From positions 1 through 26,380 of IMG/VR virus record IMGVR_UViG_3300018421_000168: DNA of 26,380 nucleotides; one strand, given 5' to 3'. This DNA comes from a virus. The notes under the pieces were generated by a model. That model ran no database searches, was not told where the DNA came from, and saw only the letters and a program-made list of their open reading frames with translations. Below, piece by piece: positions 7,214 to 26,380 of the stretch (the first letter of the stretch is position 1; each line of letters starts with the position of its first letter). Both the position numbers and the translations under genes were made by a program.

Positions 7214-9964
7214 ATGGATTTTGCCTTTTCGTGGAACAAGGAAGTCAAGAACTATCTTGACCCGAAACTAGGCAAAATCGCCGAAGGTGGTAACTTTGCT
7301 GCGTTCAATAACAACTGGATTCAGGGCGACGACGATATAATCAAGATCGCAGACCTAACATGCCAAGGCTATGGACTCTGCGCGTGGCACTTAGTCAATG
7401 GAAAGAGAGTTCAAGGTGGTACAGGCTGCATCCAAGCAGGTCTGATAATTCTAGATATTGATAACCAGGCAGATGGTAAGGATAAAAATGGCAATAAAGT
7501 ACAACAGCAAGAACTGACAGTAGAAGAAGCTCTAGAGCTAGACCTATGCAAGCGGTATCTAAGTTTTGCATACTATTCTCCTAGTACGTCAGAAACCTGG
7601 CCGCGCTTTAGGTTAGTCTTCGGCTTAGCTAAACCTATTATAGATAAAGACTTCTACCAGTGGTTTACTAGAGAGTTAGCTAAACAAGTTCCTGGCAGTG
7701 ATGTTCGAGCCACGCAGGTCCCAAACCTGTTCTATGGAACATCTGATCCTAATGGTCTTATCTGCGTAACAGACAAATACATACCCGCCGAGAAGATAGA
7801 TGAAGCTTACCAGGCTTTCATAAAGATACCTAAGCAAGAGTCAGGTCAATCAGACCCTGAGGAGGCGATCACCCTGGAGGCCGATCCTGACGGGGTAGAG
7901 CTGACAGGTCTGCTGAGCCGAACGGTCAAAGGGATCCTCGATGGGGAGGCTGTAGACGACCGCTCAACCGCCATGGCGGTGGCATTCAAAGAGATCATCG
8001 GCTGGGCCAACTGGCTGCGAGAGAACAGCGTCCCGGTGGCAACTGCGCCACTTGACGCAGCGAACCAAGTGTTTTACGCTATCTACCAGTACGCCCCGGA
8101 ACTAGACGGAAAATTCAACCGCATCCTAAATAGCATCCAAGATCCCATCAGCCTTAAACCAGCAGTAACCCTGGCAGCAGACGACGGCGACTTAGCTGCG
8201 TGGAAGCGGATCAAGACTCAGAACAATCAGATCTTTAAAGAGTACTGCCCAGAAGAAATCAAAAAAGAACTTAAGGCCAAAAAAGCAGAGCCTAAGAACT
8301 CTGTAATGACTATCGACTTCGATTTCAACTCATCCAAATCAACATCGGTATCAACACCCCCAAAGGAGAAACCTATGGATGCCACGCCGCAATCCCCTTC
8401 CCAGCTCATCCAGATTCAGAACAACAACAGGCAGTTCAGTGAAAACGATATTGCAGACATTATTGTAAACAACTATGGAGAACAGTTCCTCTACGACTCA
8501 AGCCTCGATGAGTTCTTTACATACGACGAAAACGATGGCGTCTGGTTCCTGAACGACGAGCAGCACATCAAACGCAGGATCGTAAAAACCCTAGATACAT
8601 TCGTTCAAGCCGGTGTCCTCTCGAAGTACAACTCGGCAACCATCAGCTCCGTTTACCTGATTCTCAAAGCAAAACTCCTCCGTTCTGTAAACGGCGGGCG
8701 CGGGTCGATCTGGCAAACCTCCAGAGGCAAAATCCCGTTCAAAAACGGCGTGCTCGAAGCTCACACACTGGAGTTCGAGGAAGGCAATCAGCGCGAGGGC
8801 TACTTCCAAACCCGGCTGCCATTTGAATACGACCCGAATGCTACGTGCCCAGAGATCCTTAAGTGGCTTGAATGGGCTGTGGGTAAGGATAAGCTGATCA
8901 TCATCCGTGCGTTCTGCCGTGCTGTTCTGATCGGCTACACAACTGGCGAACGTTTCCTGCATCTGATCGGCCCAGGAGGCTCTGGTAAGTCCACGCTGCA
9001 GCAGCTGCTCATCGCCTTGGCCGGCTACACGGGCACACATACCAGCGACCTAGAGACAATCGAAACCAACCGCTTCGAGTGTCACAGCCTGATCGGCAAG
9101 CGGCTATTGCTCCTGACTGACGAGGCGTCATTCAGCAAGCGACTCGACACGCTCAAGAAACTTACATCCTCCAGCGACACTCTTCGCGCTGAGCGTAAAT
9201 ACGGCAAAGAAGTCATCAACTTTAAACCAGAGCTACTGGTATCCATCGCCAGTAACGAACACATCAGCAGCTCCGACATCAGCAGCGGTCTGGAGCGCCG
9301 CCGACTGACGATCGTGATGGATCAGGTTATCGATCCTTCACTACGCCGCAACTTGATCAGTGTGTTCCCCGATCGCATAGAAGGCGAGTTCGTTAAGGAA
9401 CTGCCAGGATTTGCAGCGTGGCTGTTGGCTATGCCGTTCCACGAAATGCGTGATGTTCTCGCTAACCCGGTCAAGCACGTTCCGACCCTCAACGAATCAA
9501 ACCTTGACGCACTGGTGTTCAACAACCCGATCTGTGCGTTCTTGGCTGACTGCTGCCTGTACGCTCCCAATAGCCACGCCTCGCTCGGTGGCGGTGCGTT
9601 CCGTCCGTCGATTGATGAGTCCGAACGTGGTATGTACGTCAAGAACGCATACTCTGAAGTGTATGCCTCGTACGTCAACTACTGCAAGTCAAACGGCTAC
9701 AAGCACAGCGCTAAGGCCCGTTTCGTTGACAGGCTTAAAGAAACTGTAAGTAATGTCGTTAAAATTCCTGGCATCAACGTCAAGTACCACGGAGGCAAGC
9801 CAGTCGTTACAGGTCTCCGCCTTAAGCCTTACGACGTGAGTACGGATAGGGCGGCATCGGGTAAGAACCGCTTGCCTTCGCCTATAGACTGGGCCATGGA
9901 TCCCGACTCCTGGGATTCTGCTTTCCAAGAACACGACCCAGCACCGAGCCAATCAAATGCTTAA
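7214..9964 (+). CDS. primase-polymerase / SF3 helicase fusion (D5-like)
   Basis: 916 aa. The N-terminal ~200 residues resemble an archaeo-eukaryotic-type primase: the metal-binding LIILDIDN has D81 and D83, followed by YYSPSTSETWPRFRLVFGL and QVPNLFYG. After a linker, residues about 410-560 look like the D5_N region that precedes phage/poxvirus helicases. The C-terminal helicase core has Walker A GPGGSGKST at 586-594, Walker B LLLLTDEAS with D636-E637, a sensor Asn at N681 (SIASNEH) and an arginine-finger cluster ERRR at 694-697. The protein would unwind DNA as a hexamer and lay down primers at the replication fork. No clear ribosome site precedes the ATG. The stop overlaps the next gene by 8 nt. 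Confidence 0.85.
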   Translation: MDFAFSWNKEVKNYLDPKLGKIAEGGNFAAFNNNWIQGDDDIIKIADLTCQGYGLCAWHLVNGKRVQGGTGCIQAGLIILDIDNQADGKDKNGNKVQQQELTVEEALELDLCKRYLSFAYYSPSTSETWPRFRLVFGLAKPIIDKDFYQWFTRELAKQVPGSDVRATQVPNLFYGTSDPNGLICVTDKYIPAEKIDEAYQAFIKIPKQESGQSDPEEAITLEADPDGVELTGLLSRTVKGILDGEAVDDRSTAMAVAFKEIIGWANWLRENSVPVATAPLDAANQVFYAIYQYAPELDGKFNRILNSIQDPISLKPAVTLAADDGDLAAWKRIKTQNNQIFKEYCPEEIKKELKAKKAEPKNSVMTIDFDFNSSKSTSVSTPPKEKPMDATPQSPSQLIQIQNNNRQFSENDIADIIVNNYGEQFLYDSSLDEFFTYDENDGVWFLNDEQHIKRRIVKTLDTFVQAGVLSKYNSATISSVYLILKAKLLRSVNGGRGSIWQTSRGKIPFKNGVLEAHTLEFEEGNQREGYFQTRLPFEYDPNATCPEILKWLEWAVGKDKLIIIRAFCRAVLIGYTTGERFLHLIGPGGSGKSTLQQLLIALAGYTGTHTSDLETIETNRFECHSLIGKRLLLLTDEASFSKRLDTLKKLTSSSDTLRAERKYGKEVINFKPELLVSIASNEHISSSDISSGLERRRLTIVMDQVIDPSLRRNLISVFPDRIEGEFVKELPGFAAWLLAMPFHEMRDVLANPVKHVPTLNESNLDALVFNNPICAFLADCCLYAPNSHASLGGGAFRPSIDESERGMYVKNAYSEVYASYVNYCKSNGYKHSAKARFVDRLKETVSNVVKIPGINVKYHGGKPVVTGLRLKPYDVSTDRAASGKNRLPSPIDWAMDPDSWDSAFQEHDPAPSQSNA

Positions 9965-11829: not shown

Positions 11830-12327
11830 TTAAACGGCGGCTTTTTTAGCAGCAGCTAACGAAAGGAGATTGTTCATCATATTATGAGTCTGATAAGGAT
11901 AATCAGCATTAACAGTAGGAGTTCTTAAAAAGTTTTGATTTTGATTTAACGACATAGCCATACGTAAAGTCTCTCTATTTTTAGGCTCTGTCTGACCTAA
12001 GTACATCATCATCTCTTCCTGAGATAAATCGTCAGGAGAGAACATAGGCATCGCCCTGTGATTATACCCAGCTACACCTATAGGTTGAGTAGACTTTTTA
12101 ATGTTGCCTTCGCTGTACTCTACAGGACTTACAGGACGCCTAAAAGATATTCCGTAGTCATTGCGAATCTGAGCGGGTACACGAGTTGCGGAATCAGAGT
12201 CAAAGACTGCAAAGCGCCTTAAATAAACTTGATCCGGGGAGTTAGGTACTAAAACAGCGGGATAATCTCTGAGCGATCCAGTAAGCTCAGCAGAAGCCGT
12301 TAAGTTGGGCTGTGGAAAAACGGCCAT
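11830..12327 (-). CDS. 165-aa hypothetical protein
   Basis: Unrecognised. The N-terminal half is beta-rich (PAVLVPNSPDQVYLRRFAVF) and the middle is Pro/Ser-rich. The C-terminal half is Met/Asn/Gln-rich (FSPDDLSQEEMMMYLGQTEP) and helical, ending LLSLAAAKKAAV. There is no signal peptide or membrane segment. Its ATG shares one base with the stop of the HNH gene (TAATG), so the two are translationally coupled. Small head- or tail-completion proteins often look like this, but I cannot support a specific role. Confidence 0.6.
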   Translation of the reverse strand: MAVFPQPNLTASAELTGSLRDYPAVLVPNSPDQVYLRRFAVFDSDSATRVPAQIRNDYGISFRRPVSPVEYSEGNIKKSTQPIGVAGYNHRAMPMFSPDDLSQEEMMMYLGQTEPKNRETLRMAMSLNQNQNFLRTPTVNADYPYQTHNMMNNLLSLAAAKKAAV

Positions 12328-12554
12328 TAGTGCTTCCCGCGATTCGTACTACGATCTATAACACGTATGTTAGCCGACCCGTTATTCAAAGGGTTGCCGT
12401 CTTTGTGATCCACATCTTTACCGTCACCCTTGCGAACTCGACCGGAACGTTCTAAGTGGCGGCGGGCTTTGTTTCTAGCTGCCCGCCGTTTCTTTTGCTC
12501 AGTGGTTCCGTGGTAAGAGTCGTACTCTTCCCTATAGTCCCTATCGTTTGCCAT
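12327..12554 (-). CDS. HNH endonuclease-like small protein
   Basis: 75 aa. A strongly basic N-terminal half (KKRRAARNKARRHLERSGRV) leads into KGDGKDVDHKDGNPLNNGSANIRV, the DHxDxNPxNN core of a small HNH family common in phages. The His of VDH and the Asn residues are the expected metal-site positions. It has no zinc-binding Cys pairs. In phages such proteins serve as homing endonucleases or packaging-associated nicking enzymes. The first 14 nt of the gene overlap the preceding 76-aa gene, and it is coupled to the 165-aa gene by TAATG. A homing-type role is possible but not shown. Confidence 0.75.
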   Translation of the reverse strand: MANDRDYREEYDSYHGTTEQKKRRAARNKARRHLERSGRVRKGDGKDVDHKDGNPLNNGSANIRVIDRSTNRGKH

Positions 12555-14720: not shown

Positions 14721-15029
14721 TCACGTCTGGTGAATCCATGCTAGTACCCGCAGCTCGCGCTCGGAGGACCAAAAGGTCTGGGAGCGAAACCACTCCATAA
14801 AATCCAGAGATCCTTTCTTCAAGTTACAGCCGGCACACGCTGCAACTAAATTGTTTTTGACGGTCAAACCGCCGTGAGCTTGAGCCAGAACATGATCCAG
14901 AGTTGTTGGTCTGGTGGCTCCGCAATACGCACAACACCCCCACGAGTCGAAGATATCCTTTCGGAACTTACGTTTGGCTTTACTTCTCTGAAGACACTGA
15001 AGCTCGAAAAGAAGTTGCCTCTCGCCCAC
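14721..15029 (-). CDS. HNH endonuclease with zinc-binding Cys pairs
   Basis: 102 aa. A typical compact HNH nuclease: basic N-terminus (LQRSKAKRKFRKDIFDSWG), CAYCG as first Cys pair, LDHVLAQAHGG with the catalytic His, NNLVAACAGCNLKKGS with the second Cys pair and the Asn/Lys region. It is a stand-alone, freely diffusing DNA endonuclease, possibly a homing enzyme. It is the first gene of the minus operon and lies next to the plus-strand island at 15132-16332, where homing-type spread could have helped insertion (inference). A 93-nt gap, in which I see no strong promoter, separates it from the 42-aa basic gene. Confidence 0.85.
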   Translation of the reverse strand: MGERQLLFELQCLQRSKAKRKFRKDIFDSWGCCAYCGATRPTTLDHVLAQAHGGLTVKNNLVAACAGCNLKKGSLDFMEWFRSQTFWSSERELRVLAWIHQT

Positions 15030-15438: not shown

Positions 15439-16332
15439 ATGAGAAATGTAAATATCCAGTGGGTAACCCAGGACTATGGGTTATTCGAGCTCGACTGGCT
15501 ATGTGAATTGCTAGATGTAAAAGAAAAAGATATAAATATAGTTACGACTGGCGACAGTTTTGAAGAAGACTGTAACAGTCTAATTATATGTAACCATGCT
15601 GTTAACTATAGATATTACTTAGACAAGCTAAGAAACAAATCTAAGTTGTATGGAGTGTTTTTACTGTCAGATGAAAACCTTAGGGAACCGTGTGAGTGGC
15701 TGCATGACCCCCATTGTAAGTTTAGTGTACGTAACTATGTACACTTTATGCACACAAACAACCCTAAAGTTCTTACGGTAGGTTTAGGATATAAAAGAGG
15801 CCTTAATCAATATCTAAAAAATAATAAAAGCTCAGAAAGAGTTTATAACTGGGCGTTTGCAGGCACCCCTCATGGAGACCGGGAGCAAATGGTTGAAATA
15901 TTTACAGAAGTACGCGACTTCAAAACGCATTACTGTGGAGGATTCGGGGCTATGGATGGATTAACCACGCGGGCCTACGCCGAGATGCTCAACGAAACGA
16001 AATTTGCGTTATGTCCGCCGGGTCAGGACAGCATGGATAGCTTCCGCATGTACGAAGCACTAGAAGCCGGGTGCATACCAGTAACTCTCAGAAACGCTAG
16101 GCAACTGCACGTAGTACCAACCTACTGGCACGCAATCTTTAGAAACACTCCGAACGGGGAGCTGCCGTTCATAGTCGGCGACTCGTGGGAGGAGTGTAAG
16201 AATAAAGTAAATGAAGTTATAGAGTCAGGAAAAATAAATACCATGCAGGCTAATTGCATGGAATTATGGAGCGAACAGAAGCAGGTATGGAAGACAGAGA
16301 TACAAAAGCGCTTAAGGCTGCTTGGATCTTAA
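15439..16332 (+). CDS. exostosin-type (GT47-like) glycosyltransferase
   Basis: 297 aa. The C-terminal half has the exostosin-family pattern: AEMLNETKFALCPPGQDSMD, then SFRMYEALEAGCIPV, then an aromatic strand region. The N-terminal half is Rossmann-like (NIVTTGDSFEEDCNSLIICN). Such enzymes transfer sugars from nucleotide donors; in phages they may decorate host surface glycans, virion proteins or DNA. There is no membrane segment, so it is probably cytoplasmic. The first ~400 nt are AT-rich compared with flanking genes. The 3' end overlaps the convergent holin-like gene by 21 nt. The acceptor is unknown. Confidence 0.75.
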   Translation: MRNVNIQWVTQDYGLFELDWLCELLDVKEKDINIVTTGDSFEEDCNSLIICNHAVNYRYYLDKLRNKSKLYGVFLLSDENLREPCEWLHDPHCKFSVRNYVHFMHTNNPKVLTVGLGYKRGLNQYLKNNKSSERVYNWAFAGTPHGDREQMVEIFTEVRDFKTHYCGGFGAMDGLTTRAYAEMLNETKFALCPPGQDSMDSFRMYEALEAGCIPVTLRNARQLHVVPTYWHAIFRNTPNGELPFIVGDSWEECKNKVNEVIESGKINTMQANCMELWSEQKQVWKTEIQKRLRLLGS

Positions 16333-16623
16333 GCGATCTGCTGCAGCTCTAGGATCATACAACTGCCAGAAGTAGCTAAGATCTACAGCTGACCAGTCGT
16401 CTCCCGTCAACTTAGTAAAGGTGTCTCGAACAAGCTGATCCAACTCAGCCCCAGTTTTAGACGCTAAGACTTCTGGAAGAAGAAAATCGACATGCTCCAG
16501 AACAACAGGCGCCCAGGAGATGATGCGTCGTCTAGCCCAAGTGGTCGCCACGGGCTTCACTACAGCCTCGATCAGGCCTAGTAGAGCGAAAGAAACAGCT
16601 AAGTCAGCGATCAGTCTGATCAT
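16312..16623 (-). CDS. holin-like small membrane protein
   Basis: 103 aa. The N-terminal ~30 residues are one hydrophobic segment (LIADLAVSFALLGLIEAVV), followed by a basic patch (ARRR) and a helical acidic/hydrophobic C-terminal domain. It overlaps the preceding gene by 20 nt; that gene is another small one-TM protein, so the two are probably translated together as a membrane pair at the end of the fibre operon. A holin or antiholin role for pore formation with the endolysin (12765-14003) is plausible; the family is not recognised with certainty. Confidence 0.5.
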   Translation of the reverse strand: MIRLIADLAVSFALLGLIEAVVKPVATTWARRRIISWAPVVLEHVDFLLPEVLASKTGAELDQLVRDTFTKLTGDDWSAVDLSYFWQLYDPRAAADRLRSKQP

Positions 16624-16828
16624 GGCGTCTAGATACGAATCGACCGTGCTCGTCTCGCTTTAAGCGTTTTGTGGTTTTTTGTTTTATTTCAAGTGGAAAC
16701 ATTGTTGTCAAAGTTCTAAGGACAACTTGAGTTATAGAGTTATCCTTGGCCTTAGACATGCCAACTAATTCTGAAAATATAAATAGACCTACTGCAATCC
16801 ATAGATCGGTTTTATCTGGCGAAGACAT
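16604..16828 (-). CDS. holin-like one-TM protein
   Basis: 74 aa. A short polar N-terminus (MSSPDKTD) is followed by a hydrophobic helix LWIAVGLFIFSELVGMS, then SKAKDNSITQVVLRTLTTMF, then a basic tail (KQKTTKRLKRDEHGRFVSRR). The combination FSELVGMSKxKxNS resembles small phage holin-like proteins that end SEilGMSk.k.NSi.Q. Its 3' end overlaps the next small membrane gene by 20 nt. The DNA for TTKRLKR includes a 19-nt sequence found again at 22153-22171. Confidence 0.5.
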   Translation of the reverse strand: MSSPDKTDLWIAVGLFIFSELVGMSKAKDNSITQVVLRTLTTMFPLEIKQKTTKRLKRDEHGRFVSRRHDQTDR

Positions 16829-16941
16829 AGATAAGACACGAGTTACTTACACGTTAGCAACTCCGTTCTTTCAATCCCATCTGCGGGTGTCAGTTAAAAC
16901 AAAAATTTAGCACAGAAAACGTAGTCGAACAAAACCTAAAG

Positions 16942-18036
16942 TTAGGACCCGTAGTGGTAACTTGTTATATTACTTGGCGTTATATTAATACCGGGGGCGT
17001 TTCCTAGACTCGACCCAACACCAGAAGAAGACCAATTATAAGCTGTTAATCTATAAACCGAAGTACAACCAAAAAAAGCAACATCGTTAGTAAGAGCAAT
17101 GTCTAACGCAGATGCATTTCCGCCTAATGTAATAGATGATAACTCAGAGCCCCATCCAGAAACTTTGTCAAAAGCCCAAACTCTAAACTGAGGAGAACTT
17201 GATTTCCCTACAACAACTGTTCTCGAATCAGGGCCTACCGCTAAACACTCATCCCTAGGAGTAAAAGTAGGGCTAACAGTAGGAGCAGAATAAGCAGTAC
17301 CGAAGCCTGTTGAATCGGACCATGGCCACGCATATAAATAGCTGCCGCCTGAAGTCACCCCAAAAATTATGTCGCCTTCAAAGTTCCATTTAACCCCGCG
17401 AGAAGATCCGGCAACAGACGGCTGAGAATATAAAGCGCCAAAACCAGTAGAAGCGTCAAAAGCGTAAGCTTGAAATTGATGAGGAGCGGTAGAGTTAGAC
17501 CTAGTAACACATACAGCTGTAAATGTAGGGGATACTGAAATATCATTTAAACTTGATTGAGGTAAAGTAGCTGGGTTTGAGTACTTAACTCCAAAACCAG
17601 TAGAGGAGTCCCAAGGATATGCGTGTATGTAAGGAGATGAACTAGAAACAGCAAAAATGGCTGAAGTTGAAGCTGTTACAGCAGCCGTAGAAGTTCCAGG
17701 TAAAGCTGTTGCAGGATCAGAATATTTAGCCCCAAACCCAACCCCAGGTGTCCAAGCGTAAGCTGATATAAACGGAGTAGAACGCTGACCGACAATGACA
17801 GCAGAACCATCTGGCACAAAAGTGCTACTATCTACGCCTACAGCAGGAGGAGAAGCGGGATTTGAATAAGCAGCGCTCCAGCCAATATCAGCGCTAAAAG
17901 GGAACACCTTTAGATAAGGAGACGAATAACTAGAAAATAAAACATCTCCAATAAAAGGCCCAACAGGAGGGGTAGGCCCACCGCCGCCAGCATTAGCGCT
18001 AGAAGCAAGCAATAAATTACTAGCAGTATCAGCCAT
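16942..18036 (-). CDS. seven-bladed beta-propeller tail protein (copy 2)
   Basis: 364 aa built of about seven repeats of 45-50 residues. Each has a core like SPYIHAYPWDSSTGFGVKYS followed by NPA.LP and a strand SP.G..v.v. Repeat heads visible are SPYLKVFPF, TPFISAYAW, SPYIHAYPW, HQFQAYAF, SGGSYLYAWPW, SPQFRVWAF and VYRLTAYNW. Seven WD40/NHL-like units imply a closed propeller, a common carbohydrate- or protein-binding head. The N-terminal ~25 residues (ASNLLLASSANAGGGGPTPP) are a flexible linker. The gene starts 2 nt after the fibre gene at 18039-18701 and is a paralog of the propeller at 20323-21408. A virion adhesin is likely. Confidence 0.7.
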   Translation of the reverse strand: MADTASNLLLASSANAGGGGPTPPVGPFIGDVLFSSYSSPYLKVFPFSADIGWSAAYSNPASPPAVGVDSSTFVPDGSAVIVGQRSTPFISAYAWTPGVGFGAKYSDPATALPGTSTAAVTASTSAIFAVSSSSPYIHAYPWDSSTGFGVKYSNPATLPQSSLNDISVSPTFTAVCVTRSNSTAPHQFQAYAFDASTGFGALYSQPSVAGSSRGVKWNFEGDIIFGVTSGGSYLYAWPWSDSTGFGTAYSAPTVSPTFTPRDECLAVGPDSRTVVVGKSSSPQFRVWAFDKVSGWGSELSSITLGGNASALDIALTNDVAFFGCTSVYRLTAYNWSSSGVGSSLGNAPGINITPSNITSYHYGS

Positions 18037-18038
18037 AT

Positions 18039-18701
18039 CTACGTAGCAAAATCAACAAGGCTCCCAGCACGCCAACGGGAACCGCCATCATCAGTAACAA
18101 ATATAAATAAGTGAGTTTTACCAGTAGTTAAAGTAGGTGCCGTGCTACTAGCCCACTCAACTTCAGTCGGCCAAGTTATAGTTCCAGTTTCATGCAAAAC
18201 CTCATAAGTAAACGAATAAGCAACACTAGACGGAGCACCAGAAATAACAACCGTCGAATCGCCACTGATCGTAGCAGTAAAATAGTTACCTAAAGAACAA
18301 TCAATACCACTACCATACAATCCAAGCGCAACAATATTCTGTGTAAACTGACCAGCTACAGTGCCGCCAGAAATCGGCAGCTTTAAATCAGCGGAAGCAA
18401 TACCAGCATTACCGCTGGCTAACGCAACTGCCGAAGTCGAAAGGGCCGCATTACCACTCGACAACGCCACGCCGGCATCAGCAATACCAGCGTTGCCACT
18501 AGCCAAAGCAGTCGCAGCATCTGAAATACCCTGAGCGCCAACGACGAAAGCAGCGTTGCCACTAGCCTGAGCTGTGGCAGCATCGACTAAGGCAGCATTA
18601 CCACTAGCGAGGGCCGCTGCATCAGTGCCAGGAACTGTATCCCCAGTAGGCAACTGGGAGTAACCGCCACTGATCAGAATGATCGGAGTTCTTAAAGCCA
18701 T
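18039..18701 (-). CDS. tail fibre with ASGNA repeats and shared C-terminal domain
   Basis: 220 aa. Residues about 25-100 repeat an ASGNA unit roughly every 14 residues (ALASGNAALVDAATAQ, ALASGNAGIADAGVA), suggesting a trimeric fibre shaft. From KLPISGG at about residue 107 there is a ~110-residue domain that is nearly the same in the protein at 21412-22005: GLYGSGI, LGNYFTATISGDSTVVISG, GTITWPTEVEW and TLTTGKTH, ending SLVDFAT. It probably forms the fibre tip or attachment point for the beta-propeller encoded 2 nt downstream. It follows the 285-aa fibre gene by 6 nt. Confidence 0.7.
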   Translation of the reverse strand: MALRTPIILISGGYSQLPTGDTVPGTDAAALASGNAALVDAATAQASGNAAFVVGAQGISDAATALASGNAGIADAGVALSSGNAALSTSAVALASGNAGIASADLKLPISGGTVAGQFTQNIVALGLYGSGIDCSLGNYFTATISGDSTVVISGAPSSVAYSFTYEVLHETGTITWPTEVEWASSTAPTLTTGKTHLFIFVTDDGGSRWRAGSLVDFAT

Positions 18702-18707
18702 CTCAAA

Positions 18708-19565
18708 TCACTCCGTCAGCAGGATTTTAGGTTGAATCTCAACTTCAAGTTGAGTTGTGCTCAAGGCACGGCCGACATAGACCAACGCGCCGTAACCTTC
18801 AGCAAACGTAATCGTACCGGAAGTGGTCGAGAACCGAGTCACCTCACCATAAAACTTCGACAGATAATAAGACTCACCAGGAGTCAGCGCCGCATCAGCA
18901 GTAATATTAGAACTACTGAGTGTCACAATATTATCTGAATTAACCTTGATCGTATCGGACACGCCGCCGGCAGTAACAGCACAACCGAACGTGTTGTAGC
19001 GAGTCGAATCCACGCCGCTCGCAGCGGAGGCCTTAACGAGCGAACCAGCGTCGAAACAAACGAACTGACCGACAGAGATAGACTCGCCAGCCGTGTAGTT
19101 CTTTACAGAACTGATATCCGTGCCGCTAACAGTGATGTAATCACCGCTAGGAAGAACCGTGTTGCTACCTTCAGCCAACACATGACCAGAAACCGAGCCC
19201 TGAAAGACTTGGTTGTAGTCGATATTAAACTCAGTGCTATTAACAAGGTACAGACCGGAACCAGCACTGAATAAAGTGCCAGAAGCGCTAGTAACTGTAG
19301 CGTTTATAATGTCGTAGCTACCACTTGTAGTAATATAAATTCCCGAACCGGCGGCGATGTTAGCAGACCCTCCACCTCCAGCAGAAATGCCGCTGATTGT
19401 ACTATTTAAATCTGCCAGCGCCGAGACAACACCTCCAAAGTTCGACGGATAACCGTCAGGTGACAAGGTGAAGGAGGTTGTGCCCACGCCGCTGACTGTC
19501 TCAATAATGTTGGTAATGACTGTGACGATGCCCTCAAAGCTCTGAGAGTAAATAGGATTGCTCAT
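18708..19565 (-). CDS. tail fibre / virion decoration protein
   Basis: 285 aa, Gly/Ser/Thr-rich, no signal peptide. The N-terminal ~70 residues are an adaptor-like helix/strand region (FEGIVTVITNIIETVSGVG) followed by a poly-Gly hinge. A beta-repeat middle follows (AAGSGIYITTSGSYDIINAT, SAGSGLYLVNSTEFNID). The C-terminal ~130 residues resemble a recurring phage domain with GQFVCFDAGSLVKA, LTPGESYYLSKFYGEVT and GRALSTTQLEVEI. It lies between the tail-chaperone-like gene and the ASGNA fibre in the fibre operon. A structural fibre or collar component is the best call. Confidence 0.6.
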   Translation of the reverse strand: MSNPIYSQSFEGIVTVITNIIETVSGVGTTSFTLSPDGYPSNFGGVVSALADLNSTISGISAGGGGSANIAAGSGIYITTSGSYDIINATVTSASGTLFSAGSGLYLVNSTEFNIDYNQVFQGSVSGHVLAEGSNTVLPSGDYITVSGTDISSVKNYTAGESISVGQFVCFDAGSLVKASAASGVDSTRYNTFGCAVTAGGVSDTIKVNSDNIVTLSSSNITADAALTPGESYYLSKFYGEVTRFSTTSGTITFAEGYGALVYVGRALSTTQLEVEIQPKILLTE

Positions 19566-19592
19566 GAGCTTTGGTTTTGTATCTATTTTAAA

Positions 19593-20051
19593 TTACGCGG
19601 GCTCAGTAGGCCAGGTGATCTCCCAAGGGAATCCAGCTTGCTGAGGCACATCGCGCAGGGCTTGACGGTACGTCGCCCAGGTCGCAGCATCGACAGTAGC
19701 GTCCGAGAGCTGGGTCCAGTCGCAAGCCGAGAGTTTTTCGTTGCGCTCGAACCGAACGGATTCAGCTTGACCGGCTGTGCGCTCAGCCAAAGTCGCGGGA
19801 TCCAAGTCCCGGTACGTCCAAATCTCGGCGAAGGTGCCATCGGGATTAGCGACGACGCCCCGCACATATTCTTTGTCGTACAGGTACGGAGGCTGTTCTG
19901 TCCGGCTGATGGTAACCACGCCGAAGCTGGCTAAAGTCTCGGGACTGATCTCTTTCGTGAAACTGACGTTCGGATGATCACGCTTGAGTTCCGTAATCGA
20001 ATACGGCCACTTAGCGAGTGTCCCGTCTTCAGCCAACTTTCCGTAGAACAT
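19593..20051 (-). CDS. tail assembly chaperone-like protein
   Basis: 152 aa. The C-terminal ~55 residues match the widely seen phage tail-assembly-chaperone/tail-fibre assembly domain: ERNEKLSACDWTQLSDATVD, then WATYRQALRDVPQQ, then FPWEITWPTEP. The N-terminal ~85 residues are beta-rich. These proteins help fold or assemble tail fibres. The ATG shares one base with the stop of the upstream 81-aa coiled-coil gene (TGATG), so the two are coupled. Its position among fibre genes agrees with the call. Confidence 0.75.
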   Translation of the reverse strand: MFYGKLAEDGTLAKWPYSITELKRDHPNVSFTKEISPETLASFGVVTISRTEQPPYLYDKEYVRGVVANPDGTFAEIWTYRDLDPATLAERTAGQAESVRFERNEKLSACDWTQLSDATVDAATWATYRQALRDVPQQAGFPWEITWPTEPA

Positions 20052-20296
20052 CAGGATTCCTCCAGCTCCGCAAGCTGATCGGCAATAACATCTCTCATAA
20101 TTATAGATTTAAGTTGCTCTCGTTGGTTATCGGCCAACAGTTTAATGAGCTGCTCTTTGAAGTCAAGCATATCTTGGTTCTCAGCGTACTGAGTGTTAAT
20201 TTTTTCGATGGCGCGTTTGAAATTGTCTATGTTTAGTTGGTACTCAGCAACTTCGTTATTGCGAGCTTCGAGAAAAGTCTGCAGTTGATCTCGCAT
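20051..20296 (-). CDS. 81-aa coiled-coil protein
   Basis: From the ATG at 20296: MRDQLQTFLEARNNEVAEYQ and onward, almost entirely helical with heptad-like spacing (LDFKEQLIKLLADNQREQLK), ending ADQLAELEES. A longer frame begins at 20428 but would run through the 3' end of the propeller gene and has an unlikely Cys/Phe/Trp-rich start, so I use the internal ATG. It is coupled to the tail-chaperone-like gene by TGATG. It may form part of a chaperone pair for fibres. Confidence 0.6.
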   Translation of the reverse strand: MRDQLQTFLEARNNEVAEYQLNIDNFKRAIEKINTQYAENQDMLDFKEQLIKLLADNQREQLKSIIMRDVIADQLAELEES

Positions 20297-20322
20297 TGGA
20301 AGCAAAAACAGAAGTATATAGG

Positions 20323-21408
20323 TTAAGTAGGAGAAAAAGCAACAGAACGTCCTACCCCAGTTGGCGCAATAGAAGGAGCCGAATAAGCGGTTCCAAAACC
20401 AGTGGCAGGGTCGAAAGGCCACGCCCAAGGTCTATTGCCGGATGTAGCAGCTACGTTAGATACAGCTAGGCCATCGGCTGACACAGACGTGTCTGCAGAG
20501 GTGCTGGTAGGATAAGTAGCAGGTTGATAACGAGTACCGAAACCAGTAGCATCACTCCATAGATATACATAAACTCTAGGCGCATTGCCATAAACATAAC
20601 TAAAAAAGTCACCAGCAGGAGAGAAAGAAATGCCTCCGCCGTTAGAACTGCCTAAAGGGCTGGGATCAGCATATTTCGAACCAAAGCCAGTAGAGGAATC
20701 CCAAGCGTAAGCCAGAATTCTAGTTCCGCTAACAGTAGTTGTGACTACAGCCCCACCCGTGGAGCTAAACCTAACTCCTTGACCTGTAGACCCAGGCAAA
20801 ACAGCAGGATTACTATATTTAGTACCAAAACCAGTACTTTCAGACCAAGCGTAAGCAGATATATAAGGAGAACCATAGTGAGTTACAGCTATAGCGTCAT
20901 TATTGGGGTGAAAGTCAACACTTTTTCCGTGACTAGGTAAGGCTACAGCAGGGTCTGCATACTTAGCCCCAAAACCAGTAGAATTGTCCCAACTGTAAGC
21001 TATTACATAAGGAGTATTAAAAAACATAGGAAAAGCAACAGCAGTCCCTAATTTAGAAAAAGACGGAGTATAACTACTTTCGCTTGTAGCTCTAGGTAAA
21101 ACAGCTGGATTCGAATAAGCGGTCCCAAAACCAGCAGCTGAAAATGGATAAGCTCTGACGTAAGGATTTGTTGAAGAAAGAGTAACTAATACTTTAGAAT
21201 CAGGAGACCAGCAAACGCCATAACAGTTTCCTGTTGGTAATGTAGCGGGATTAGAAAACTTAGTCCCAAATCCAGTAGTAACATCCCACGGATAAACAGA
21301 AATATAAGGAGAAGTGTCATGACCGACAGCTATATAGCTGGATTTAGCTGGACCTCCTCCGCCCGCACCAGCAGCACCTAACAATGCAGCATCAGTTGTG
21401 AAAGCCAT
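20323..21408 (-). CDS. seven-bladed beta-propeller tail protein (copy 1)
   Basis: 361 aa, the paralog of 16942-18036. Seven blade heads are visible: SPYISVYPW, NPYVRAYPF, TPYVIAYSW, SPYISAYAW, TRILAYAW, PRVYVYLW and NRPWAWPF. Most are followed by xxTGFGxxYxxPAxLP and a strand of the form GVxFSPxG. The last strand (GVGRSVAFSPT) could close the ring with the N-terminus. The N-terminal linker is Gly-rich (LLGAAGAGGGGPAKS). The gene starts 3 nt after the stop of the fibre at 21412-22005, the same pairing as the other copy. It is probably a virion-borne binding head; no enzymatic motif is seen. Confidence 0.72.
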   Translation of the reverse strand: MAFTTDAALLGAAGAGGGGPAKSSYIAVGHDTSPYISVYPWDVTTGFGTKFSNPATLPTGNCYGVCWSPDSKVLVTLSSTNPYVRAYPFSAAGFGTAYSNPAVLPRATSESSYTPSFSKLGTAVAFPMFFNTPYVIAYSWDNSTGFGAKYADPAVALPSHGKSVDFHPNNDAIAVTHYGSPYISAYAWSESTGFGTKYSNPAVLPGSTGQGVRFSSTGGAVVTTTVSGTRILAYAWDSSTGFGSKYADPSPLGSSNGGGISFSPAGDFFSYVYGNAPRVYVYLWSDATGFGTRYQPATYPTSTSADTSVSADGLAVSNVAATSGNRPWAWPFDPATGFGTAYSAPSIAPTGVGRSVAFSPT

Positions 21409-21411
21409 ATA

Positions 21412-22005
21412 TCAAGTGTCGTAATCGACTAAACTTGCAGCACGCCAGCGAGAACCCCCGTCATCTGTAATAAAGATGAATACATGGGTCTTGCCAGTAG
21501 TCAGAGTCGGCGCGGTATCACTCGGCCACTCGACTTCAGTAGGCCAAGTAATCGTTCCTGTATCGTGTTGAACCTCATAAATAAGACTATAAGCAACACT
21601 CGACGGAACACCCGATATAACAACAGTCGAGTCGCCGCTAATCGTAGCTGTAAAGTAATTACCTAAAGCACAGTTAATACCGCTGCCGTACAACCCGAGA
21701 GCAACGATATTCTGTGTGATCTGGCCGTCCACGGCGCCGCCAGAAATCGGCAGTTTCGTATCAGCCAGGGAAAGAGCAGCGTTACCGCTGGCCCGAGCAA
21801 CCGAGTCAGTAGCGGAAATACCGCCGCCCAGACTGGAAATAGTTATCTTTTTAGGCTGAGCGTCAGCGTTAACCTCGCTAACGTCTAAAACCGCAAGAAT
21901 ATCGTCACCCGAAACCTGACCTGCAGACAGTTCCTGTAAGTCATGAATGGGTTGGATGTGCCGCCCGTAATCTAGGGCGTCGTTTAGTTTACGCCTAGCG
22001 GCCAT
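21412..22005 (-). CDS. short tail fibre with shared anchor and shared tip domain
   Basis: 197 aa. The N-terminal ~58 residues (ARRKLNDALDYGRHIQPIHD, then VLDVSEVNADAQPKKIT) match the start of the 406-aa fibre at 25003-26223, so this is probably the virion-anchoring domain. A single ASGNAAL unit follows, then from KLPISGG the ~110-residue C-terminal domain shared with 18039-18701. The protein is a short chimera of two modules found separately elsewhere in the operon. Upstream are a TATAAT box (22028-22033) and the HTH-coding repeat. The propeller gene follows 3 nt after the stop. Confidence 0.72.
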   Translation of the reverse strand: MAARRKLNDALDYGRHIQPIHDLQELSAGQVSGDDILAVLDVSEVNADAQPKKITISSLGGGISATDSVARASGNAALSLADTKLPISGGAVDGQITQNIVALGLYGSGINCALGNYFTATISGDSTVVISGVPSSVAYSLIYEVQHDTGTITWPTEVEWPSDTAPTLTTGKTHVFIFITDDGGSRWRAASLVDYDT

Positions 22006-22027
22006 ACGAATCCGACCTAATGTCTAA

Positions 22028-22033
22028 ATTATA
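22028..22033 (-). promoter_or_regulatory. TATAAT -10-like box upstream of short fibre
   Basis: A perfect TATAAT on the minus strand, 22 nt before the ATG at 22005. The TAA inside it is the stop of the HTH frame. The same arrangement occurs at 26250-26255. No convincing -35 element is seen 17 nt upstream. Confidence 0.45.
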
Positions 22034-22178
22034 GCTCAACAGATTTGTGCTGTATTTTACACCAACGTGCCGACACTCGTTTAACAGAACTGAGGTGGCA
22101 ACCCAGATTTTTAGAGATCTGCATACAAGTCAAGCCGTCCTGAAGGCCCGAGCTCGCTTTAAGCGTTTTGTAGTTCTT
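22029..22178 (-). pseudogene. helix-turn-helix ORF or remnant (copy 1)
   Basis: An open frame of 49 codons with no good start at its 5' end (two TGA codons precede it at 22179-22184). It reads ...LKASSGLQDGLTCMQISKNLG, then CHLSSVKRVSARW, a clear helix-turn-helix pattern with turn LG and recognition helix SSVKRV. The only ATG (22124) would start inside the domain and give 31 aa; a TTG is at 22133. A neighbouring frame starts at an ATG (22182) with MKELQNA and would join this one after a single +1 shift, so the gene may be frameshifted or decayed. The tail after SARW is CKIQHKSVEL. Confidence 0.45.
22062..22152. repeat. 91-bp perfect direct repeat, copy 1
   Basis: Identical over 91 bases to 26290-26380, from CCAACGTGCCGAC to GAAGGCCCGAG. 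It covers most of the HTH reading frame on the minus strand. It ends on its right side against ctcgctttaag, which at copy 2 lies beyond the window, so the true repeat may be longer. It precedes the anchor-domain fibre gene at 21412-22005. Confidence 0.95.
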
Positions 22179-22220
22179 TCATCAGGCCCGTAGTCGGGGA
22201 CACTACGAGGTCTGGCTCAA

Positions 22221-23000
22221 CTACACAATCGCTGCGGCGAGGTCGCTCATCAGCGTGGTGACGCGGGCGTCGAGTAGGGCTAGGTCTAGGGATTCGCCGA
22301 TTGAGTAGAAGGAGAGGCGGGCGTCGGACTGAGCAATCAAATTACGACCGAACACAATAATTGACTGATCTAACGGTAATTGCGAGGAAGAGCTATAGGA
22401 GGTAGTTGCACCAGAAGTTCTTATTAAAATGCTGCTGCTGCTATTGCGACTCGCGCCGGTAAATCCAATCCCAGAGTTTGACCCGATGTTTATGGCAGCG
22501 GAAGAGTTTATTCTTGCGGCAAACACTGGCGACGCCCCCGCAAAAGTAGAAAGATTTGAAGCTCCACTGTCACTAGTGCCCGCGCCGATGTAACCCTGAT
22601 TAACGGTCCCCGAGTTTAACTCTGCTGCATAAAAGCACAAGTGCTTGCTATTCTGCGGATCAGCATTGTTATTCCTATTGCTGTTTACATACTTGGTGCT
22701 TCCGTCGCCAATCAATCCCGTCTCGCGGTTGTAGTCCCCAGAGACAAAGTTGTAGTTCGTCGGAGCCGTACCAACTAGCGGAACCAACGCACCATCCAAC
22801 GTCCTAGCACCAGCCAGGACGCAGCTCGCCTTCAGTGCTGGCCAGATGCCATCAGCCTTGCAGCCTTTGATGAAGGTGTTGTACGCCAGCTTCACTGCCG
22901 GTTCCAGCTCCTGGCCATCGGCTGCTTCCACGGCAGCGATGTAGCTCAACGCTTCGGGTTCGTCGGGTAGGCGAAACTCGGGGATGATTGCCCAGCTCAT
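22221..23000 (-). CDS. receptor-binding-type tail protein (paralog 1)
   Basis: 259 aa, paralog of 23782-24552. The N-terminal ~115 residues are conserved between the two (EALSYIAAVEAADGQELEPA, KASCVLAGARTL.GALVPLVG, GDYNRETGLIGDGSTKY, NRNNNADPQ). The middle is variable and Ser/Asn-rich. The end is conserved again (ARLSFYSIGESLDLALLDAR). Conserved ends around a variable centre fit a phage adhesin whose exposed part diversifies; a concanavalin/LamG-like jelly-roll is possible. GGAGG lies before the ATG at 23000. A 23-codon micro-ORF overlaps its start by 4 nt. Confidence 0.6.
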   Translation of the reverse strand: MSWAIIPEFRLPDEPEALSYIAAVEAADGQELEPAVKLAYNTFIKGCKADGIWPALKASCVLAGARTLDGALVPLVGTAPTNYNFVSGDYNRETGLIGDGSTKYVNSNRNNNADPQNSKHLCFYAAELNSGTVNQGYIGAGTSDSGASNLSTFAGASPVFAARINSSAAINIGSNSGIGFTGASRNSSSSILIRTSGATTSYSSSSQLPLDQSIIVFGRNLIAQSDARLSFYSIGESLDLALLDARVTTLMSDLAAAIV

Positions 23001-23068
23001 GGTGATACCTCCATTTCAGTGGTAGTGGCAGTGTCTAGTCCAGTGGTCGTGATGTAGGTCATGGTCAT
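22997..23068 (-). CDS. 23-aa coupling micro-ORF
   Basis: MTMTYITTTGLDTATTTEME plus VSP. Its ATG overlaps the stop of the DUF1566-like gene (ATGA) and its stop overlaps the ATG of the paralog-1 gene (ATGA). It contains the GGAGG of that gene. It may be translated only as a coupling leader, or be an accidental frame. Confidence 0.3.
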   Translation of the reverse strand: MTMTYITTTGLDTATTTEMEVSP

Positions 23069-23733
23069 GGAAGGGCTATACGGCGGAAGGCACGAACATA
23101 TAATCCCGTTGTTTTCGGTGAGTTGTCTAGCTTCCCGGTGGAAGGAGTTAACTGTTTTGCGTTGGTGGTACTAGCCTCAGTAGAACTCCAGTGCCGATCT
23201 GCAATAAATCCTTCAGCAGAAGTCGCAAATGCCGTGACACTTGTTATGCTTGGGTAGTTTGTGGTGTTATTTATTATTCTCTTCGGTACAGAATAATTGT
23301 TAATACCGAAGGAGCTGTCGTTGGCCTGGGTCGTTGGTTTTAGATTGAAGTAAGCAATATCAAGTTCTAGCACGCTCGGTAAATACCAATCAGTAAATCC
23401 ACCGATGGTCAAATTCGTGCAGAACTGAGCAGCAGGGTGATCCGCAATACCTGCCGTAACGATTGCAGCCGTATTAGCTACTCCATCAAAGTCGCTAGTA
23501 GTGCCGATCGTGGTTGTGCTCGTTGTTTTCCAAGCGGGAAAAGTAGTCTGGGGGTAAGCGCCCCCCGTCGCCCCAGTCGCGGCTGGCGCAACGATCAACG
23601 CATGGGTTGGATTCCCGTCAGCGGTATGGCTGATGTAGCCAGCAAAATAACCACCGCCCCAGGGCTCACCGATGACAGCCGGATACTGCTGGATCTTGGA
23701 TAGCGTCAACTTCCCCGGCACATAGATCGTCAT
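23065..23733 (-). CDS. DUF1566/Lcl-type tail protein
   Basis: 222 aa. The N-terminal part has WGGGYFAGYISHTADGNPTH followed by ALIVAPAATGA, typical of phage-borne DUF1566 (Lcl C-terminal-like) domains. The core has FTDWYLPSVLELDIAYFNL and the end has RHWSSTEASTTNAKQL followed by YVRAFRRI, the expected closing motifs. The domain is related to formylglycine-enzyme/C-type-lectin-like folds and often forms adhesin tips. A well-placed GGAGG precedes the ATG at 23733. It lies between the two paralogous receptor-binding-type genes, which supports a host-recognition function. Confidence 0.75.
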   Translation of the reverse strand: MTIYVPGKLTLSKIQQYPAVIGEPWGGGYFAGYISHTADGNPTHALIVAPAATGATGGAYPQTTFPAWKTTSTTTIGTTSDFDGVANTAAIVTAGIADHPAAQFCTNLTIGGFTDWYLPSVLELDIAYFNLKPTTQANDSSFGINNYSVPKRIINNTTNYPSITSVTAFATSAEGFIADRHWSSTEASTTNAKQLTPSTGKLDNSPKTTGLYVRAFRRIALP

Positions 23734-23737
23734 AGCG

Positions 23738-23785
23738 TCACCTCCGCAGCAGCATTAGTGTTACAGAATTGTGTGTGTGGGTCAT
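23738..23785 (-). CDS. 15-aa coupling micro-ORF
   Basis: MTHTHNSVTLMLLRR. Its ATG overlaps the stop of the paralog-2 gene (ATGA); its stop lies at the ribosome-binding site of the DUF1566-like gene. Coding status is uncertain. Confidence 0.25.
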   Translation of the reverse strand: MTHTHNSVTLMLLRR

Positions 23786-24552
23786 GGTATAGCGGCTCCG
23801 ATGGCGGTGATCAGGTCGGTGACACGACTATCGAGGGCGGCCAGGTCCAGGAATTCGCCGATGGAGTAGAAGGCGAGGCGGGCGTTGGTCGAACTTGCAT
23901 AAACAAGCCAAGGTGCGCCTGTGGCTACAGTCGAGCTGCCACCGCCTGTTACAGTAAAACCATTACCACGAAAAGTTGCACTAGTAGAAGAATTCCTAGA
24001 TACCCCTAAGAATGCTGGGACGTTCTCGTTGTCCCCGTTGAGCTGGAGAAAGTTAGTTTGACTTGCACCTTGCCATCTAGGAACACTTCGGTTCTGAAGA
24101 ATCGCAGACCAGCCGTTCTGTCCAAACGTACCCGTTGATATTGCTGTCGGGAAGGAGTTTACGATATCCTTTTCCGAACAGTACACAGAAAAGTGCTGGT
24201 TATCCTTCGGATCCGCGTTGTTATTCCTGTTGCAATCCAAATACTTCGTGCTCCCATCCCCCACCAGCCCCGTCTCGCGGTTGTAATCACCAGCCACGAA
24301 GTTGAAGTTCGTAGGCGCTGCACCCACCAGCGGCACCAATGCACCATTGAGCGTACGGGCACCAGCAAGAATGCACGATGCCTTGATCGCGCTCCAGATA
24401 CCGTCGTTCTTGCAGCCAAGGACGAAATCATTGATCGCCCTGGCTACACCAAATTCAAGATCCTGACCATCGGCAGCCTCTACGGCAGCGACATACTCCA
24501 CCGCTTCAGGTTCAGTCAGTCCGTTCCAGCCAGGCCGCCAGACCAAAGTCAT
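23782..24552 (-). CDS. receptor-binding-type tail protein (paralog 2)
   Basis: 256 aa, paralog of 22221-23000, with the same conserved start (EAVEYVAAVEAADGQDLEFG, SCILAGARTLNGALVPLVG, GDYNRETGLVGDGSTKY) and end (ARLAFYSIGEFLDLAALDSR). Residues about 125-220 have no obvious similarity to paralog 1. No signal peptide, membrane segment or catalytic motif is seen. GGGAGG lies before the ATG at 24552. A 15-codon micro-ORF overlaps the start by 4 nt. It is probably a tail-tip adhesin or its cap. Confidence 0.6.
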   Translation of the reverse strand: MTLVWRPGWNGLTEPEAVEYVAAVEAADGQDLEFGVARAINDFVLGCKNDGIWSAIKASCILAGARTLNGALVPLVGAAPTNFNFVAGDYNRETGLVGDGSTKYLDCNRNNNADPKDNQHFSVYCSEKDIVNSFPTAISTGTFGQNGWSAILQNRSVPRWQGASQTNFLQLNGDNENVPAFLGVSRNSSTSATFRGNGFTVTGGGSSTVATGAPWLVYASSTNARLAFYSIGEFLDLAALDSRVTDLITAIGAAIP

Positions 24553-24596
24553 GGTGTGGCCTCCCGATTAGTGTCGTTGTCTAGGAGGGCGCTCAT
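24549..24596 (-). CDS. 15-aa coupling micro-ORF
   Basis: MSALLDNDTNREATP. It starts in an ATGA overlap with the stop of the 134-aa gene and ends in an ATGA overlap with the start of the paralog-2 gene; it contains that gene's GGGAGG. Coding status is uncertain. Confidence 0.3.
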   Translation of the reverse strand: MSALLDNDTNREATP

Positions 24597-24997
24597 TCCA
24601 CCACCTCCGGCTCGGGTCGCACATAGCTCAGGATTTCAGCCGGGCGGGCGGCATCCAGCAGGCCTTCGGATACCAGCAGAGCCAGGCCGGGTGCAAGGCG
24701 TGGATCATCCATCGCCACATTGGGTGAGGCGTAGAGCTGCTCCAGCAGACCAGCAACTTCAGCATTCTGCTCGGCAGCAGCCAGGATGGCGCCGTACTCA
24801 GCAGGTGTGAAGCGAGCCACAAAGGCAGCACCAGTGATGACGCCCACCTCGTTCAGGTCGGCATAGGAGCGGCCTTGGTTGTTCAGGAACTCGAGTGCCA
24901 AGGCTTCAGGGCTGAGGCCATTGGCGTTTGCTGCAGCGACCCAGCCATCAATCAGGCGGGTGTCGGTCAGCGTGATGGTCAAAGTAGAAAGGGGCAT
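24593..24997 (-). CDS. 134-aa fibre-module protein
   Basis: From the ATG at 24997 (MPLSTLTITLTDTRLIDGWV). A TTG at 25006 overlapping the upstream stop would add three residues. The product is helical and Ala/Leu-rich: AANANGLSPEALALEFLNNQ, GRSYADLNEVGVITGAAFVA, RFTPAEYGAILAAAEQNAEV. Proteins of this type appear next to fibre genes in cyanophage-like sequences; a small chaperone or adaptor role is likely, but no function is established. It lies between the 406-aa fibre and the receptor-binding-type paralogs and is coupled on both sides. Confidence 0.6.
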   Translation of the reverse strand: MPLSTLTITLTDTRLIDGWVAAANANGLSPEALALEFLNNQGRSYADLNEVGVITGAAFVARFTPAEYGAILAAAEQNAEVAGLLEQLYASPNVAMDDPRLAPGLALLVSEGLLDAARPAEILSYVRPEPEVVE

Positions 24998-25002
24998 GGC
25001 TA

Positions 25003-26223
25003 TCAAACGGTGATACGGAGTTCGCCAGTGGCGGTTTTGTAAACGTCACCGGCAACTAGACCACCGGAGGTGGCTGCAGTGTTGTCGGCATAGGTGGGCA
25101 GGTTGGGCAGCTTCAGTGTTGCTGCAGTGATACGAACGGTTTGCTCGGAGCCAGTACCTGCACCTTCGGAACCGATCTCAAAGACGTTGCTGTTCCACTG
25201 AAGGAAGCCACGCTCGTAGTTTGAGGCGTCGGTGTAGGTGTTGTAGAGCCTGTAGGTTTGGGCGTTGGTGCCGTTTTTTTGCTCAACGACTGAAGCCACA
25301 AGCGTCAAAGGACCAAGTGTTCCTCCGGGCGTTCCCGCAGTAATCTGAATTTCATGACCAGTGCCAAGACCAAAACCAATTCTGCCCCTTAATGAGGTTG
25401 CAAAGTATCCATCTACCGTGGCGCCAGCATTGGATCCTATGCGTAAATTATGGTTGGCATCTCCAAATCTTGCAAACGAAGGAGTGATGTAGGCACGACC
25501 ACTCCCATTCAACTGCAGATCCAGCAGATTCCCCGTAAACCCACTAGCAGCATTAACACCCAAGCCTGTGCCGCTGGTGCTCCAGGCAGTCGAGGTGGTG
25601 CCAGCTGGTTCAATCAGCACCTGAGGCTTGGTGGTAGTAGCCGTGCCGCCCGTGAACCACGTGCCGGTGAACTTGACAGGCGGAGTGGATGCAGCGCCAG
25701 CCAGGCTGACATCAATCTCACCAGTGCTGCCGATGTTGGCAGAGGTCAGGCCAGCTTGAGCGCCAGCATTGTTGTACGTGAACTGCCCACTAGAGCCTGC
25801 AACTAAGGCAACGGTGCCCGTTGCATCGGGGAAGCTGATGGTGCGGTTGGCAGTAGCCGTCACCATCTGGAGCGTGGTGGAATACGTCCCACCGTCATCC
25901 AGGTTGATGTCACCGCCGACGCCAAGCTCTTTAGCGGTGTCGTCCCAGGTCAGATCGGCAGAGCCACCGAAGGCGCCGCCGTCATTGAATTGGATCTGGG
26001 TATCTGAGCCGCCGGGTGTCCCCCCTCCCCCTCCTCCTCCAGCTGTTACTAAATCTTGTAAAGTAATTTTTTTAGGCTGTGCGTCAGCGTCAATCTCGCT
26101 AACATCTAAAATGGCTACTATATCATCAGCAGCAGCACTAACACCAGCGTCCTGCAACTCATGTATAGGCTGCATATTGCGCCCATAATCTAGGGCGTCA
26201 TCTAATTTACGTCTAGCCGTCAC
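25003..26223 (-). CDS. long tail fibre with shared N-terminal anchor
   Basis: 406 aa from a GTG at 26223. The N-terminal ~57 residues (ARRKLDDALDYGRNMQPIHE, then AILDVSEIDADAQPKKIT) match those of the short fibre at 21412-22005. A seven-Gly hinge and TPGGSDTQIQFNDGGAFGGS then lead into a Gly/Thr/Ser-rich beta shaft of a kind common in phage fibres (WDDTAKELGVGGDINLDDGG, SFPDATGTVALVAGSSGQFT). The C-terminus (NLPTYADNTAATSGGLVAGD VYKTATGELRITV) is a typical short fibre end. No collagen-like repeats or intramolecular chaperone motif are seen. The HTH repeat and a TATAAT box lie just upstream. Confidence 0.75.
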   Translation of the reverse strand: MTARRKLDDALDYGRNMQPIHELQDAGVSAAADDIVAILDVSEIDADAQPKKITLQDLVTAGGGGGGGTPGGSDTQIQFNDGGAFGGSADLTWDDTAKELGVGGDINLDDGGTYSTTLQMVTATANRTISFPDATGTVALVAGSSGQFTYNNAGAQAGLTSANIGSTGEIDVSLAGAASTPPVKFTGTWFTGGTATTTKPQVLIEPAGTTSTAWSTSGTGLGVNAASGFTGNLLDLQLNGSGRAYITPSFARFGDANHNLRIGSNAGATVDGYFATSLRGRIGFGLGTGHEIQITAGTPGGTLGPLTLVASVVEQKNGTNAQTYRLYNTYTDASNYERGFLQWNSNVFEIGSEGAGTGSEQTVRITAATLKLPNLPTYADNTAATSGGLVAGDVYKTATGELRITV

Positions 26224-26249
26224 ACAATAACCCCAGACCTCTGATAAAC

Positions 26250-26255
26250 ATTATA
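26250..26255 (-). promoter_or_regulatory. TATAAT -10-like box upstream of long fibre
   Basis: A perfect TATAAT on the minus strand, 26 nt before the GTG at 26223. As at 22028-22033, it contains the stop codon of the HTH frame. No clear -35 element is seen. Confidence 0.45.
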
Positions 26256-26379
26256 ACAAAGAGTTTTGAGCTTTGTCTTGAGATTTTCGCCAACGTGCCG
26301 ACACTCGTTTAACAGAACTGAGGTGGCAACCCAGATTTTTAGAGATCTGCATACAAGTCAAGCCGTCCTGAAGGCCCGA
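26251..26379 (-). CDS. helix-turn-helix ORF (copy 2), 5' end outside window
   Basis: 42 codons to the window edge. It has the same SGLQDGLTCMQISKNLG and CHLSSVKRVSARW as copy 1, then a different tail, RKSQDKAQNSLL. The tail keeps the K-x-Q-x-K spacing of copy 1, and the Gln codon is changed synonymously (CAG to CAA), which favours protein-level constraint. Whether this copy has an intact start cannot be seen. It could be a small DNA-binding regulator or the C-terminal part of a larger recombinase-like protein. Confidence 0.5.
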   Translation of the reverse strand, partial: SGLQDGLTCMQISKNLGCHLSSVKRVSARWRKSQDKAQNSLL

Positions 26380-26380
26380 G
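26290..26380. repeat. 91-bp perfect direct repeat, copy 2 (cut by window end)
   Basis: Identical to 22062-22152 in the same orientation. It precedes the anchor-domain fibre gene at 25003-26223 by 66 nt. The window stops at its last base, so the right boundary is unknown. Confidence 0.95.

Follow-up and report, generated by a model that had tools for sequence, protein, structure and literature searches.

Results and Discussion

The fibre locus and its two gene arrays

The window analysed here is one whole IMG/VR contig of 26,380 bp, which is classed as linear and is therefore probably a fragment. The structural protein at its left end has 50% identity to Synechococcus phage S-EIVl, and its genes include a D5-type primase, ThyX and an endolysin, with the fibre region on the minus strand. 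The window belongs to a cyanobacterial virus and, as assembled, carries two tail-fibre/receptor-binding arrays in tandem. A megablast search with its DNA found no known phage with the same DNA, and the sole match of the intergenic region, 30 nt long, was at chance level and was set aside. Two small HNH-endonuclease-type genes (12327–12554 and 14721–15029, both minus strand) lie in the lysis region beside the fibre locus. A protein with an Exostosin GT47-like glycosyltransferase domain (15439–16332, plus strand) adjoins the locus and has the same place in the relatives G001 and G003.

In G001 and G003, a single array lies between a helix-turn-helix (HTH) DNA-binding gene upstream and a gene here called g74 downstream, so that two conserved border genes enclose variable fibre and receptor-binding content. 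The order in the window is HTH, array 2, a joined g74 stub and HTH stub, array 1, and g74. This last gene, the downstream border of the locus, is intact at 16604–16828 on the minus strand and is conserved in both relatives.

Array 2 consists of five genes, all on the minus strand; the sequence-only reading was correct in describing a 4.1-kb adhesin set between two repeat copies. The five genes encode a 406-aa fibre protein (anchor2, 25003–26223), a small phrog_25252-like protein (24593–25006), a receptor-binding-type protein of phrog_17104 (paralog a, 23782–24552), an adhesin-type protein resembling Lcl_C (DUF1566) below the Pfam cut-off (23065–23733), and a second phrog_17104 protein (paralog b, 22221–23000), which is the last gene of the array. 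The two phrog_17104 genes are ordinary paralogs, 73% identical in DNA. The distal proteins of array 2 resemble those of cyanophages KBS-S-2A and S-CBS4.

Array 1, also on the minus strand, begins with a 197-aa fibre gene (anchor1, 21412–22005). Its remainder (16942–21408) comprises a repeat protein (20323–21408), a tail assembly chaperone (19593–20051), a further gene (18708–19565), an anchor1-like gene (18039–18701) and another repeat protein (16942–18036). The two repeat proteins have a period of about 48 residues and are mutually related through homologs in the contigs L068 and L069, which have fewer or different repeats. The anchor1-like gene is a second copy of the C-terminal half of anchor1, matching 21526–21753 at about 81% DNA identity across 228 bp, and both L068 and L069 break off in the stretch homologous to it. 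Anchors 1 and 2 share 65% protein identity over the N-terminal domain; past the anchors, the two arrays have no gene content in common.

A 91-bp repeat at the end of an HTH gene

A perfect repeat had been claimed upstream of the two fibre genes, and it is real: positions 22062–22152 and 26290–26380 agree letter for letter, and the copies diverge immediately to the left (downstream on the gene strand), where the very next base differs. This pair is the only exact repeat of at least 25 bases in the window. Also borne out was the statement that the adjacent anchor-coding regions are related yet different, since their N-terminal coding parts are 76–79% identical in DNA. At 78% identity, the probability of 91 consecutive matches is about 1.5e-10, so the identity of the copies is not due to chance. 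Copy 2 runs into the contig end, making 91 bp a lower bound from that side, and copy 1 has an independent edge of its own at 22152/22153, where g74-derived sequence starts.

Translation of the 91 bp on the minus strand gives SGLQDGLTCMQISKNLGCHLSSVKRVSARW, which identifies the repeat, on sequence grounds, as the 3′ end of the neighbouring HTH gene. In G001 (L076), a 115-aa protein with two HTH motifs (HTH_23 and HTH_28), ending in ALQSGLTCSKVAEVVGCHVSTVKRVSARRKKAQA, is encoded directly upstream of the homologous anchor of a single fibre operon; the repeat translation matches this protein at 58% over 33 residues. Beyond the 91 bp, both copies stay in frame into different tails, each closed by a stop codon: CKIQHKSVEL in copy 1 (22029–22061, minus strand) and RKSQDKAQNSLL in copy 2 (26251–26289, minus strand). 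Copy 2 (minus strand) is the 3′ end (30 codons) of an HTH gene that presumably continues intact past 26380, and copy 1 (minus strand) a 5′-truncated HTH remnant fused to the g74 stub.

Screens with ARAGORN and Rfam found no tRNA-like or structured RNA in the repeat, and no exact 40-mer of it occurs in 2.9 million viral contigs. A coding-pattern search with the repeat returned one match, to an unrelated protein, which was discarded.

Each copy is followed by a box resembling a −10 element by consensus match only. TATAAT lies 26 nt before the anchor2 start codon (26250–26255, minus strand), overlapping the HTH stop codon, with AAGACA, likewise a consensus match only, 18 nt upstream. The same hexamer lies 22 nt before the anchor1 start codon (22028–22033, minus strand) and overlaps the stop codon of the HTH remnant. 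TATAAT or TATACT also occurs 20–22 nt before the anchors of G001, G002 and G003. A promoter just past the repeat is therefore likely in both copies, judging from these boxes, and each array would be expressed independently from its own.

The junction between the arrays

Directly upstream of copy 1 on the gene strand lies a 25-nt sequence, AGAACTACAAAACGCTTAAAGCGAG (22153–22177, minus strand), which is a g74 stub. It matches g74 of the window exactly over 19 nt (16654–16672) and g74 of L068 over 23 nt, while shuffled g74 controls never gave an exact match longer than 10 nt. The junction between the arrays thus joins a fragment of the downstream border gene to a fragment of the upstream border gene. 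Because g74 and HTH border a single array in the relatives, this join brings the downstream edge of one array together with the upstream edge of another. This short fragment is missing roughly the first 50 codons of g74, which calls for at least one additional rearrangement. Neither the 40-mer scan of 2.9 million viral contigs nor the coding-pattern search turned up a relative with this scar.

Module exchange in close relatives

L068 and L069 have 94–96% DNA identity to the window in shared stretches. The window segments 16861–18535 and 20288–21353 are replaced in them by other receptor-binding-type genes, and the comparison with L068 accordingly reveals different content between near-identical flanks. 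We conclude that fibre modules travel as a group within this phage lineage. Since the repeat brackets a complete second array and close relatives have swapped other parts of the same locus, the earlier proposal that arrays are gained, lost or exchanged here gains support.

Other arrangements are also found. G002 (L077) has two anchor-type fibre genes head-to-head on one intergenic region (7929–8639, minus strand, and 8744–9919, plus strand), and the anchor of G003 is separated from the HTH locus by about 34 kb. Judged by eye, the gene preceding the anchor in L086 and L087 resembles thyX.

A conserved 20-nt element at the array border

Just after the last stop codon of array 2 lies a 20-nt element, CCTCGTAGTGTCCCCGACTA (22191–22210, minus strand). 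We collected 62 loci solely for encoding a phrog_17104 relative; the element, with at most four mismatches, is present in 30 of them, against about 0.3 in shuffles, and always on the gene strand. The core TAGTGTCCCCG is invariant in all 26 stop-adjacent copies of this unbiased set. An exact 17-mer scan located the element in 58 viral contigs, and in 39 of 48 distinct contexts a long open frame ends 4–21 nt before it. The preceding frames fall into six single-linkage BLASTP groups, including phrog_17104-like and Lcl_C-like proteins; as they come from single-linkage grouping and exact-match scans, these counts are approximate only.

The sequences on either side of the element change abruptly. 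One downstream flank is found behind different gene groups, as in L090 and L128 (21% identical upstream, 100% downstream), and one upstream gene is found before different flanks, as in L006 and L009 (100% identical upstream, about 30% downstream). Overall, dozens of cyanophage contigs (L003–L064, L090–L142, L150 and L151) have the element after unrelated receptor-binding-type genes. The isolates include KBS-S-2A, with mismatches, and 7B11-B and WH11-B, with exact copies. Past the element, the sequence of 7B11-B is that of the metagenomic contig L003, and the upstream genes differ; assembly error is therefore not the explanation there. In Synechococcus phages 7B11-B and WH11-B (L150 and L151, 5001–5020), the element directly follows a truncated open frame (MSIQPGQHNISVQRRAD...). 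The start of this frame is similar to genes that lie downstream of the element in other contigs, as though the element were the point at which a gene had been cut and joined again.

An intrinsic terminator was considered and rejected: four T within 15 nt downstream occurred in none of 45 contexts, and the mean folding energy was about that of shuffles. An origin in host DNA was likewise rejected, no exact 19-mer of the element being present in the prokaryote genome set, and a literature search for the core TAGTGTCCCCG gave two unrelated papers, with no occurrence in the phage papers covered.

In mosaic phage genomes, boundary or linker sequences occur at gene borders. The 20-nt element is similar in being a short conserved DNA at a border where unrelated genes exchange, but what sets it apart is its repeated presence in several cyanophage groups, and specifically behind receptor-binding genes. 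It is possible, though we propose it only tentatively from these flank comparisons, that receptor-binding cassettes are actually exchanged at this element across several groups of cyanophages and that the tandem array is one product of such exchange, whose mechanism would be the annealing of short homologies or the action of an endonuclease or recombinase. Alternatively, the element may be a functional border that recombination respects. Together with its abrupt flank changes, it may be a more novel observation than the repeat.

Origin of the tandem arrays

Our preferred reading, to which we give a probability of roughly 80%, is that two arrays stand in tandem in one exchange locus, that the repeat is the 3′ end of the HTH gene, and that the join of g74 to HTH sequence at 22153/22152 is a recombination scar. 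Unequal or illegitimate recombination would have placed one array behind another, leaving this scar between them. The two HTH ends, one in the presumably intact gene and the other in the truncated remnant, would be identical through recent shared origin, and the tails, promoters and anchors beyond them would come from two diverged lineages. The divergence of tails and anchors points to a crossover between lineages at the inner edge of the repeat.

A simple tandem duplication of the whole fibre locus within the genome, followed by divergence or replacement of the contents of one array, would account for the same outer genes on both arrays (an HTH end before them, g74 or its stub after them) and for the homologous anchors with which both arrays start. 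It is nevertheless unlikely, as gene content past the anchors is not common to the arrays and the distal proteins of array 2 match KBS-S-2A and S-CBS4. Moreover, identity is only 50–62% at the third codon positions of the anchors against 100% in the repeat, which indicates that foreign DNA entered at or after any duplication. We regard it as quite unlikely that an assembly artefact, the collapse of two strains that share the 91 bp, produced copy 2 or joined the arrays. Both arrays are linked in the contig as assembled; however, copy 2 stops precisely where the contig does, as expected at a fork in the assembly graph, and with only 91 bp shared a loop is conceivable, with array 2 as a circle or multimer. 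The join of element, g74 stub and HTH stub, by contrast, offers no overlap from which an assembler could create it and must therefore exist in molecules, and both the reading frames of the genes and the order in relatives with one array agree with a real tandem product.

Perfect identity between diverged neighbours, together with the −10-like box that closely follows each copy, could also suggest a functional DNA element: a promoter-upstream regulatory sequence or a dedicated recombination site in which selection or an active enzyme maintains the identity. We consider this very unlikely; the earlier suggestions of an active recombination site or strong constraint are not supported, nor is a role as conserved upstream regulatory DNA. 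The 91 bp form an open HTH reading frame, and they do not occur before the anchor genes of G002, G003 and the others examined, which have a −10-like box all the same. Compared with G001, DNA identity of the HTH end is only 54% overall and 27% at third codon positions. The HTH-end DNA is thus not strongly constrained across the group, and saturation of synonymous sites against G001 makes the perfect identity between the copies point to a recent common origin. No inverted repeats of at least 30 nt surround the repeat, and no recombinase, invertase or integrase was found among the window proteins scanned.

Two known kinds of system were also considered and rejected. For an invertible tail-fibre switch of the Mu/P1 Gin/Cin type, no inverted pair of at least 30 nt is present in 19000–26380, which has direct repeats only. 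No serine recombinase gene occurs among the scanned proteins within the contig, the HTH protein of G001 resembling serine recombinases in the HTH motif only, and no reverse transcriptase of a diversity-generating retroelement was detected among them; the phrog_17104 paralogs do not resemble the template and variable repeats of such an element but are ordinary paralogs. The repeat marks a recent swap of host-recognition genes rather than a special switch.

Under the exchange-locus reading, the tandem arrays and the repeat predict a simple reverse event. A crossover between the two copies would excise array 2 and return the locus to one array, with the HTH gene intact. The sequence-only reading, which had this recombination delete or swap the intervening set, stands as far as the deletion goes: loss of array 2 would leave HTH and array 1, as in G001. 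No relative with array 2 alone behind HTH was found.

Comparison with known systems and significance

Tail-fibre and host-recognition modules are exchanged horizontally between distant phages, for example Alteromonas phages A5 and V22 (PMC10579305). There too, fibre, chaperone and receptor-binding modules are common to phages of different groups; here, however, two arrays stand side by side, and fragments of both border genes form a legible scar between them. Enterococcus phage EfV12-phi1 acquired tandem duplications within its tail-fibre gene during coevolution (PMC6365445). That case is alike in the copy-number change at a host-recognition gene but differs in being an in-frame duplication within one gene with identical copies, whereas in the window divergent multi-gene arrays lie side by side.

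The scar is a readable record of how two sets of host-recognition genes can end up together in one cyanophage. The movement of receptor-binding genes between unrelated cyanophages is usually inferred without a physical breakpoint, and the 20-nt element provides a testable handle on it.
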